Positions 4,355-10,105 of a stretch of 32,222 bases of DNA are shown piece after piece. The number at the start of each line of letters is the position of its first letter. Position 1 is the first letter of the stretch. Source of the stretch: Actinomycetota bacterium (GTDB lineage: Bacteria > Actinomycetota > Acidimicrobiia > Acidimicrobiales > Ilumatobacteraceae); contig JAPKZV010000109.1 of assembly GCA_026393585.1 (NCBI GenBank), forward strand, positions 1-32,222. The letters are read 5' to 3'. Below the pieces are notes generated by a model, which worked only from the letters and a program-made list of their open reading frames with translations, did no database searches and was not told the origin of the DNA. The translations under genes and the position numbers were made by a program.

Positions 4355-5314
4355 TTATCGGCAGATCCCCCCTCCCCCTTGAGTGTTCTCGGCGCCGTAT
4401 GTCACGTTTTTTGCGACATTTTGCGCCGAGAAACCTCTTTGGAGGTGTGAAGCGACGAGTTTTGGCTCAAAAGCAATCTGCCGGAAAGAAAAGCGCCACA
4501 CCGTGTATCCCAAAGATTGCAATTCCGCATCGCGTAGACGGTCATTTTCAAAAGCATCGCGAGTCGACCCGTGATAGGTAAAACCATCACATTCCACAAT
4601 TGCTCGATACTGCCGCCAGAGAAAATCAACACGGTAATTGCCAACTTGAGCTTGAAATTCAAATGGAGGCAACTTGTTCATGAAACAAAGAGACAACATT
4701 TTTGCTTCCAAAACACTTTCGGGTTGTGCAGTGTCGAGGTCCCATTTATTCAAGAGATTTTTCAACTGCGTAATGCCGGGGCGACCTTGTTTTGCGTGAA
4801 GGAACAGTTGTCGCCATGCAGATTGGATAGTGAATTGATCGGCAACTAAGAAATGTTCAAGCACGCGGTGGGCAAGTGCGGGGTTCCATGCGCAGGTATC
4901 GAGCAGCGTACGAAATGGCGAAGTAGAGGGAATTCCTTGCGTGTCGATAGGGGAAAGGTCATAAGTATCAATTGGACGATGCACGACCGCGCCAACAAGT
5001 TTGCGATGAAGTGGCCGCGTGGGGCTCAGAATATGGATGGGTTCAATGAACGGAAGCGATACTCCATGTAGCCAAGCCGCAGTTGCTCCTCCCGCCATCG
5101 CATCTTTCCCAGATGCACGAACTGCAGCAGCAATACGTTGTTCTGGTGACTGCTGCGTGTTGGTGACCGCGCCAATTCCAGGCTGGAGAATAGAGAGATA
5201 GCCACGATGAACTGCGCGACTCCAAGAAGAGCGAGAAACGTGAGCAGGAACGACTTCGCCGTGGGCGATGAGGCCGAATTGATCTGCGAATTGCTGAAGT
5301 GTGTTGTGGTACAT
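4355..5314 (-). CDS. DUF559-domain (Vsr-like PD-(D/E)XK) nuclease with N-terminal AbiEi-like winged-helix region
   Basis: 319 aa; N-terminal AbiEi-type pattern (GEVVPAHVSRSSWSRAVHRGYLSILQPGIG...AAWLHGV); C-terminal DUF559 core VDFLWRQYRAIVECDGFTYH...DRLRDAELQSLGYTVWRFSF. Confidence 0.85.
   Translation of the reverse strand: MYHNTLQQFADQFGLIAHGEVVPAHVSRSSWSRAVHRGYLSILQPGIGAVTNTQQSPEQRIAAAVRASGKDAMAGGATAAWLHGVSLPFIEPIHILSPTRPLHRKLVGAVVHRPIDTYDLSPIDTQGIPSTSPFRTLLDTCAWNPALAHRVLEHFLVADQFTIQSAWRQLFLHAKQGRPGITQLKNLLNKWDLDTAQPESVLEAKMLSLCFMNKLPPFEFQAQVGNYRVDFLWRQYRAIVECDGFTYHGSTRDAFENDRLRDAELQSLGYTVWRFSFRQIAFEPKLVASHLQRGFSAQNVAKNVTYGAENTQGGGGICR
4383..4435. repeat. Palindromic repeat copy 1 (left arm of inverted pair flanking the DUF559 gene)
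   Basis: GTGTTCTCGGCGCCGTATGTCACGTTTTTTGCGACATTTTGCGCCGAGAAACC; 44/53 identical to the reverse complement of 5359-5411; perfect 10-bp terminal stem TTCTCGGCGC(4386-4395)/GCGCCGAGAA(4423-4432); lies inside the 3' end of the DUF559 ORF. Confidence 0.92.
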
Positions 5315-5358
5315 ACCTGACTGTGTGCATTAGTCACATGAGAGCGCCATAAATTTTG

Positions 5359-5411
5359 GTTTCTCGGCGCGTTTCGTCACGAAAAGCGGGACATACGGCG
5401 CCGAGAACACT
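5359..5411. repeat. Palindromic repeat copy 2 (right arm of inverted pair flanking the DUF559 gene)
   Basis: GGTTTCTCGGCGCGTTTCGTCACGAAAAGCGGGACATACGGCGCCGAGAACAC; 10-bp terminal stem 5362-5371/5399-5408 identical to copy 1; 24 bp upstream of hom start. Confidence 0.92.
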
Positions 5412-5435
5412 AAAAGTGGGTTATAGCCTGAAGGG

Positions 5436-8311: not shown

Positions 8312-10105
8312 GTGGCAGCAATGGCTGCAGAAGCACTAGAGCAATCAGTTCTTGAATCTAAGGACCGTGAACAACTCATGGCAATCGCCCAAGCACTGGG
8401 TGTGAAGTCGGTTTCGCGTGCCAAAAAGGCTGAACTCATCGACAAAATTTTGGAGCAAACAGCTCCACCGGTAGAGACCAAGCGCCCTGCCCGCACCGAG
8501 AAGCAAGCACCAAAAGAGGCTGCTGCGCCTAAAGAAGCACCAGCTGCCAAAGCAGAACCACGCGTGGTCATCGGCATCGATGGTGAACCACTGTCAGAGT
8601 GGGAACTCGAGCTCGCTGAGCATGAAGGAACGCTCGAGAAGACCGCTTCTGAAGGTCATCGCCCGAATCGCCCGCACAATGATCGTCAACAAAATGATCG
8701 TGGCCCACGCCAACAAAACGATCGTCAACAAAACGATCGTGGCCCACGCCCACAAGGTGGTCAGCAAAACGATCGCGGCCCGCGCCCACAAGGTGGTCAG
8801 CCAGGCGGTCAGCCAGGTTTCCAACAGGGTTCACGTTTCGACAACGACCCAGCAAATCGCAATCGCAATCGCAACCGTCGCCGTCGTAAAGGACGCCGTG
8901 ACGATGAGGGCCCACAGGGTACCGACCGTTATGAAACCGATGTTGATGTTTCAGACGATCCAATAAGCACAGAGCCAGTAGCAGTGTCGGGTTACCTCGA
9001 CCTGCGCGACGAGGGCTACGGCTACTTGCGCGTGAATGGCTACTTGCCAACTCGTGAAGATGCATACATCTCAGTGAAGCAAACGCGTCAATACGGTCTG
9101 CGCAAAGGCGACCATGTCACTGGCATGGCACGCCCTGCTGCACGTGGTGAAAAGAACCCAGCGATGCTCGATATCGCTACGTTGAATGGCAAGTCTCCAG
9201 ACGATGTAAAAAAGCGTCCACGCTTTGAAGATCTCACGCCGTTGTTCCCCGATTCAAAATTGCGTCTTGAAGACGACAATGATCCGGGCAACATGACTGC
9301 ACGCATTATCGACCTCATTGCGCCAATTGGTAAAGGTCAGCGTGGTCTCATTGTGTCTCCGCCAAAAGCGGGTAAGACCACCATCATGAAGACCATCGTG
9401 AGCTCCATTGAAAAGAACAACCCCGAGGTCGACCTCATTGTTCTGCTTATCGATGAACGCCCAGAAGAAGTAACCGACATGAAGCGCACCGTTCGTGGTG
9501 AAGTCATTTCGTCAACCTTCGACCGTCCGTCTGAAGAGCACACCATCGTTGCGGAAATGGCAATTGAAAAAGCCAAGCGCATGGTGGAAGCTGGAAAAGA
9601 CGTAGTTGTGGTTCTCGACGGTATTACACGTCTCTCGCGCGCATACAACCTTGCTGCTCCTGCAACAGGTCGTGTGATGTCGGGTGGTATCGACGCAGGT
9701 GCTTTGTACCCACCGAAGAAATTCTTTGGTGCTGCACGCAACGTAGAAGAGGGTGGAAGTCTCACCATCCTTGCCACGTGTCTGGTGGAAACAAACAGCC
9801 GTATGGACGATGCCATCTTTGAAGAATTCAAAGGAACCGGCAACATGGAATTACGCCTCGATCGCCGTCTTGCCGAGCGTCGCGTGTACCCAGCAATCGA
9901 TGTCGATGCCTCAAGCACCCGTCACGAAGAGCTGCTCTTCCCGCCCAAGCAATTGCAGTTGGTCTGGAAACTCCGCCGCGTGCTCTCGGGCCTCGCTGCC
10001 GATGGAAACGGGGCTCCAGGGCTTGAACTGCTCATCGACCGCCTCAAATCATTCCGCAATAACGACGAATTCTTGTCAGAAATCGCTAAACAACCCTCGA
10101 TGTAG
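8312..10105 (+). CDS. rho: Transcription termination factor Rho with long Arg/Gln/Asn-rich N-terminal insertion
   Basis: 597 aa; SAP-like N-term, [31 protein letters not shown]-binding domain, SPPKAGKTT Walker [31 protein letters not shown]. Confidence 0.97.
8675..8820 (+). repeat. Degenerate in-gene tandem repeat coding (N/Q)[11 protein letters not shown] units
   Basis: Repeated DNA words caacaaaa(c/t)gatcgt, ggcccacgcccacaaggtggtcag visible several times in tandem. Confidence 0.85.

Follow-up and report, generated by a model that had tools for sequence, protein, structure and literature searches.

Why would a solitary DUF559 gene lie between two inverted palindromes, and does the arrangement extend beyond a single locus? 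We addressed this in a window of 32,222 nucleotides (the whole stretch of DNA analysed, contig JAPKZV010000109.1) from an Ilumatobacteraceae genome, G000, of 2.03 Mb in 264 contigs. The bracketing described in the initial annotation was confirmed and lies far beyond chance: two palindromes of 47 bp enclose one minus-strand gene for an AbiEi-DUF559 fusion protein. The unit is probably a member of a phylum-wide nuclease/palindrome system, in which an AbiEi module would bind half-sites, the DUF559 domain would cut, and the palindromes would disperse in a REP-like manner. The features of the locus are the following (window positions):

4386..4432, plus strand: left 47-bp palindrome, outer half on the left and inner half on the right; overlaps the 3' end of the DUF559 ORF
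5361..5407, minus strand: right 47-bp palindrome, in opposite orientation to the left one; located between the divergent hom and DUF559 genes
4355..5314, minus strand: AbiEi-DUF559 fusion gene, ORF of 319 aa
4889..5287, minus strand: putative AbiEi-type DNA-binding module, residues 10-142; PADLOC AbiEi E=1.2e-10, fold match to AbiEi 6y8q
4442..4672, minus strand: DUF559 / REase_MTES_1575 nuclease domain, residues 215-291, with E241, H248 and D258; folds 3r3p and Vsr 1cw0
4381..4385, plus strand: outer flank GAGTG (consensus ARGKG), facing out of the cassette
5408..5412, minus strand: outer flank CACTA (TAGTG on the minus strand; consensus ARGKG), on the other side of the cassette

The gene lies between a SpoIID-like gene and hom. 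It starts with an ATG at 5314, which leaves 46 bp to the right palindrome, and the reading frame ends only at 4355, beyond the left palindrome, so that this palindrome and the 3' end of the coding sequence overlap. Both palindromes read TTCTCGGCGC-N27-GCGCCGAGAA (10-N27-10), that is, halves of 21 bp around 5 bp (21-5-21). The initial annotation had described 53-bp repeats with 10-bp stems around a divergent 27-nt centre. The palindromes lie exactly at the places it gave; each measures 47 bp, and the inverted similarity covers 62 aligned nt at 81% identity (4374-4435 / 5358-5419). The centre is not merely divergent: it consists of two 11-nt inner arms and a 5-nt spacer, with conserved outer and inner halves. 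Elsewhere in the window, tandem repeats of 36-39 bp (8669-8787) lie within the ORF 8312-10105, probably in a low-complexity N-terminal region.

At the protein level, the window protein matches Pfam DUF559 (E=2.4e-11), and 16/16 aligned members match the DUF559, REase_MTES_1575 and PADLOC AbiEi models. Its AlphaFold model, of moderate confidence (pLDDT 81, pTM 0.58), matches the folds of I-Bth0305I (3r3p; TM normalised to target 0.79-0.82), a Neisseria endonuclease-like protein (3hrl), Vsr (1cw0; 0.52) and the AbiEi antitoxin (6y8q). E241, H248 and D258 are each kept in 103/105 proteins, a degree of sequence conservation that argues for selection on catalysis.

AbiEi binds an inverted repeat TGTTGCTTTTA-N27-TAAAAGCAACA (11-N27-11) that extends to 23-3-23 bp (Dy et al. 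2014, PMC3985639). The same study proposed that each half takes one monomer, whose winged helix contacts the outer ~11 bp while the second domain covers the remainder (PMC3985639). The geometry of our palindromes is nearly identical (10-N27-10 / 21-5-21 vs. 11-N27-11 / 23-3-23), the outer arm being constant and the inner one more variable. In genome G182, bases 7-10 are constant within each palindrome family while the search fixed only six outer bases, and thus the conservation of the outer arm there is no artefact. Given the AbiEi precedent and this geometry, it is very likely that the AbiEi module binds each half-palindrome. In the mechanism we propose, the module –winged helix plus second domain– would bind one half of 21-23 bp; its winged helix would recognise the ~10 conserved outer bp, and each palindrome would accommodate two monomers placed tail to tail. 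The DUF559 domain (EDxHD/Vsr-like, related to I-Bth0305I) would then nick or cut within or beside the palindrome. The upstream copy is probably also autoregulatory, and the palindromes would be dispersed as solo copies and inverted pairs, like REP with RAYT but by an unrelated enzyme. After binding, the outcome may be REP-like dispersal, homing or cassette capture, or mere autoregulation with the dispersed copies as by-products. Cleavage and any nuclease-driven spread of the palindrome or the cassette are hypothetical steps.

The initial annotation had looked for the stem by eye, in the window only, and saw no further copy there. A genome-wide search shows that the stem is not unique: G000 holds 22 palindromes with exact stems and 30 when up to three mismatches are allowed (reversed control, 0), and only the spacing of 27 came back from an allowed range of 20-40. 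Each copy in the genus has the anatomy 10-11-5-11-10. The outer half type is ARGKG-TTCTCGGCGC-[CG]GTATGTMYCG, with ARGKG preceding the stem, and the inner half type has a different conserved sequence without ARGKG; some solo palindromes are built of two outer halves. Palindromes occur in 13/13 genomes of the genus, and those genomes that have lost the nuclease gene retain 10-23 of them. No Rfam family matched the palindrome. Some MAG records titled Bifidobacterium breve or Acidobacteria (CAMCZG, CAMBPP, JAGWWV) have contigs that match this Ilumatobacteraceae genus; these titles are probably wrong.

In G000, eight pairs with members closer than 3 kb account for 16 of the 30 copies, and all eight are inverted with the outer half outside, whatever the gene strand; for random orientations the chance of eight such pairs is (1/4)^8 = 1.5e-5. 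As read from the translations, they enclose the nuclease, genes of patatin-like and exonuclease/phosphatase-like type, SDR with oxidoreductase, MetY, SMP-30, GNAT, a 120-aa protein or no more than 36 bp. We dropped the idea that the palindromes are simply the termini of metabolic-gene cassettes with no relation to the nuclease, as DUF559 genes of other families are bracketed by different palindromes. Xer/dif sites, integron attC sites and DNA-uptake sequences were also considered and had no supporting feature (the 10-mer occurs 53 times in 224 kb, about the palindromes' own share). At pair-bracketed sites, single palindromes are individually absent in some relatives of the window genus (L016-L022, L035 and relatives). 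Contigs C37, C134 and C214 of G000 carry near-identical versions of one MetY cassette locus, probably a strain mixture in the assembly.

Do palindromes systematically flank DUF559 genes, as the initial annotation asked? They do so across the phylum for the AbiEi-DUF559 family, and they are gene-specific. The generic 47-mer TTCTCG-N35-CGAGAA also outnumbers its reversed control elsewhere in the class, in several genomes and with differing interiors. Among them, G182 has 56 copies and two families, TTCTCGTGAC... and TTCTCGTCAA..., which enclose one DUF559 gene each; the outward tag is CCG there and ARGKG in the window genus, and close pairs in G182 are of mixed orientation. The 47-mer was absent from six PF04480-negative genomes outside the window genus (G002, G005, G013, G025, G161, G204; small numbers). 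Pattern matches in Opitutae and Myxococcota formed no hairpins and look coding. When we searched 20 genomes with the DUF559 profile (PF04480) and scanned the gene flanks, G248, G212, G193, G050, G012, G010 and G269 had DUF559 genes with their own palindromes on one or both sides. The palindrome sequence varies from gene to gene, even among paralogues of one genome. No bracketing was seen for the short DUF559 proteins that lack an AbiEi module (L198, L199, L211; n=3).

With a profile built from 16 such AbiEi-DUF559 proteins (A1), relatives were found in 42/120 sampled Actinomycetota genomes, with up to 17 per genome. The statistics cover 39 Actinomycetota genomes and 105 non-duplicate full-length loci for which both flanks were available. 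A stretch of at least 14 nt is common to the left and right flanks in 39/105 loci (28 genomes) vs. 2/427 swapped-flank controls (Fisher, p 2.5e-28), and palindromes occur in 90/210 flanks vs. 4/192 distal windows (Fisher, p 2.7e-25); these p values are nominal, since loci that share a genome are only partly independent. Strong palindromes within 330 bp were found on one or both sides of 65/105 loci, and on both sides of 25/105. Altogether 48/105 loci, in 30 genomes, are bracketed and 57/105 fail the bracketing criteria used. Across Actinomycetota the flanking palindromes span ~40-60 bases: G151 has near-perfect 50-bp palindromes to either side of the gene, and in G010 (L205) a pair of 41 bp carries compensatory changes. 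The initial annotation also asked whether stems co-vary with nuclease clade, and no deep covariation appeared: the Mantel signal between palindrome and protein similarity was not significant once one near-identical pair was removed (r 0.02). Phage genomes held no homologue, and the plasmid collection essentially one full-length homologue.

In G000, 28/30 palindromes are away from the DUF559 gene and the majority of dispersed copies follow a stop codon at a distance of 3-14 bp, and for this reason a terminator role is conceivable. The whole pattern could then be regulatory: the AbiEi module would autorepress through the upstream palindrome, and the other copies, multiplied through ordinary recombination, would act as bidirectional terminators or form 3'-end hairpins, the nuclease being uninvolved. 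AbiEi is a known autorepressor that binds such repeats (PMC3985639), the palindrome has a median distance of 45 bp upstream of the gene, and the hairpins have folding energies of -23 to -44 kcal/mol. However, terminators need neither a fixed 47-bp length nor a conserved sequence. The T run of intrinsic terminators is absent after the stem (CACT/ACC is there instead), even if the post-stop placement is terminator-like. Moreover, the copies are gene-specific and gene-bracketing, the right window palindrome lies between divergent genes, the close pairs keep the same outward face regardless of gene strand, and the catalytic residues are maintained. We regard a purely regulatory reading as unlikely and favour the nuclease/palindrome system.

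If the palindromes beside nuclease genes are family members, they should recur, and dispersed copies are then expected elsewhere in the same genome. Beyond the 30 copies in G000, this prediction held in other genomes. G151 has 18 copies of its flank palindrome, two of them at its one DUF559 relative (control 0), and G402 has 13 copies, two at the gene (control 0, sister genome 0). In the cultured Tsukamurella tyrosinosolvens NCTC13231, the DUF559 gene (WP_068740572.1) lies between 41-bp palindromes TGCGGTGGAT...ATCCACCGCA, with a LysE transporter and an NAD(P)H-binding protein as neighbours. BLAST placed this palindrome at 7 places over three records of the strain, the best of each record being outside annotated genes. 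The reverse test gave the same association: the loci L151 and JAEKLB010000062.1 (L153 and L085 together), retrieved by palindrome only, proved to hold the nuclease gene, with palindromes at 39419 and 40419 at its two ends in the latter.

Local variants of the palindromes were also seen. In L177 (2015-2061 and beyond), the palindrome arm CGAGAACACTTTGGG is multiplied beside one copy. Another genus of the family has short tandem arrays of similar 47-bp palindromes with ~70-bp or double spacing (L052 at 1432/1501/1640; L053 at 1430/1501/1570).

At the hom locus, the empty sites with one palindrome envisaged by the initial annotation were found in relatives. Among nine close genomes, the cassette is present in four (G000, G083, G028 and G059, with two palindromes) and absent in five with one palindrome left. 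In the empty sites of G116, G137, G145 and G094, the left outer flank continues directly into the right palindrome and the left arm is degenerate; G045, also without the gene, has a more decayed palindrome remnant. An older form of the cassette occurs in G071, G105 and G127, and a decayed one in G001. The nuclease gene at hom has an in-frame TAG in G071 (L331) and an internal deletion in G001 (L074/L334), where the palindrome stems also have more mismatches. The empty sites are scattered on the hom tree, requiring four changes by parsimony, at least two of them forced by well-supported branches. As outgroups carry the cassette, the simplest reading is that it was recurrently lost, presumably by recombination between palindrome arms. 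Among the orthologous sites compared, none showed a clean de novo palindrome gain; what differs looks like loss, and one such site still has residual arms. A search for clean pre-insertion sites with a target duplication found none.

The same locus bears on a homing or gene-capture scenario. A lone palindrome of two outer halves would be the target, its centre would be cut, and a cassette bounded by inner halves would be copied in, leaving outer-inner...inner-outer brackets round the nuclease or other genes. The outer/inner asymmetry, the solo copies of two outer halves, the eight inverted pairs around the nuclease or ordinary genes, the one-palindrome sites in five relatives and the resemblance of the nuclease domain to a homing endonuclease all point this way. 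Against it, no locus was found that is outer-outer in one genome and cassette-filled in a relative, the empty sites keep an inner half, cassettes are mostly vertical within the genus, and the close pairs of G182 have no fixed orientation. We consider this scenario improbable. Its broader version, in which AbiEi-nuclease proteins cut lone palindromes and capture or insert themselves and arbitrary neighbour genes as bracketed cassettes, seems more doubtful still; if true, it would be a gene-mobilising system in Actinomycetota with an enzyme unlike that of every known transposon, integron or REPtron.

The preferred reading, a nuclease with half-site-binding module and REP-like palindromes, would offer a function and a DNA target for a common actinobacterial fusion with a domain of unknown function (42/120 genomes) and explain families of dispersed palindromes. 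Several results speak against it: the lack of observed palindrome gains, the palindromes kept by genomes without the gene, the 57/105 unbracketed loci, the non-significant Mantel test, the terminator-like placement and the moderate structure model. Since each protein has a candidate recognition site beside its gene, dozens of specificities could be tested together. A DUF559-palindrome association or system was not found in the open-access literature –for DUF559 papers, at the level of titles and abstracts– and in that sense the system is undescribed; it looks like a selfish element. The Caulobacter VsrA also has a DUF559 domain, and its report, as far as the available text goes, gives a functional link to a solitary cytosine methylase with no mention of a palindrome association (PMC12907096).

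When compared to AbiE type IV toxin-antitoxin systems (AbiEi, PMC3985639), the DNA-binding module, the inverted-repeat geometry and the site upstream of its own gene are shared. Here, however, the module is fused to a nuclease, no AbiEii nucleotidyltransferase toxin is a neighbour in the window or the Tsukamurella locus, and the sites lie on both sides of the gene and are dispersed genome-wide. With the EDxHD homing endonuclease I-Bth0305I and with Vsr, the candidate nuclease shares the fold, judging from the model, and the conserved acidic and histidine residues. Vsr mismatch repair is marked by linkage to a cytosine-5 methylase and nicking at T:G mismatches. Unlike these enzymes, the window gene is bracketed by palindromes and lies outside introns, and no cytosine methylase was noted beside it in the window.

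The initial annotation cited REP/RAYT and homing endonucleases as precedents for a nuclease with cognate palindromes. The association itself was borne out by bracketing, paralogue-specific palindromes and dispersal, and REP/BIME with RAYT (TnpA-REP) and TIRtrons (PMC3733652) share much of it: dispersed, mostly intergenic palindromes, copies flanking the nuclease gene, several gene-specific families per genome, and inverted pairs. Could these simply be REP/BIME elements of the classical kind, with a RAYT (Y1) transposase encoded elsewhere to move them? Intergenic dispersal, inverted pairs and 3'-end placement would fit. However, Y1 (HUH) transposase PF01797 was found in 0/13 genus genomes, which are incomplete, while the same search was positive in 5 control genomes. 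REP are 20-40 bp with a GTAG or CGTC tag (PMC3733652), vs. 47 bp and no such tag here, and this explanation is highly improbable. Across the phylum, the system combines an AbiEi wHTH with an EDxHD/Vsr-like nuclease instead of HUH Y1, and palindromes of 40-60 bp without GTAG. Since the enzyme, the palindrome length and the tag differ and the defining transposase is absent, it is not a REPtron member. The REPtron –nuclease gene plus dispersed palindromes– is still the nearest kind, and in genome organisation our system works like REP/RAYT; on a stricter view, it could be a variant of the nuclease-plus-palindrome theme. The comparison suggests that REP-like partnerships of nuclease and palindrome arose at least twice, with unrelated enzymes.
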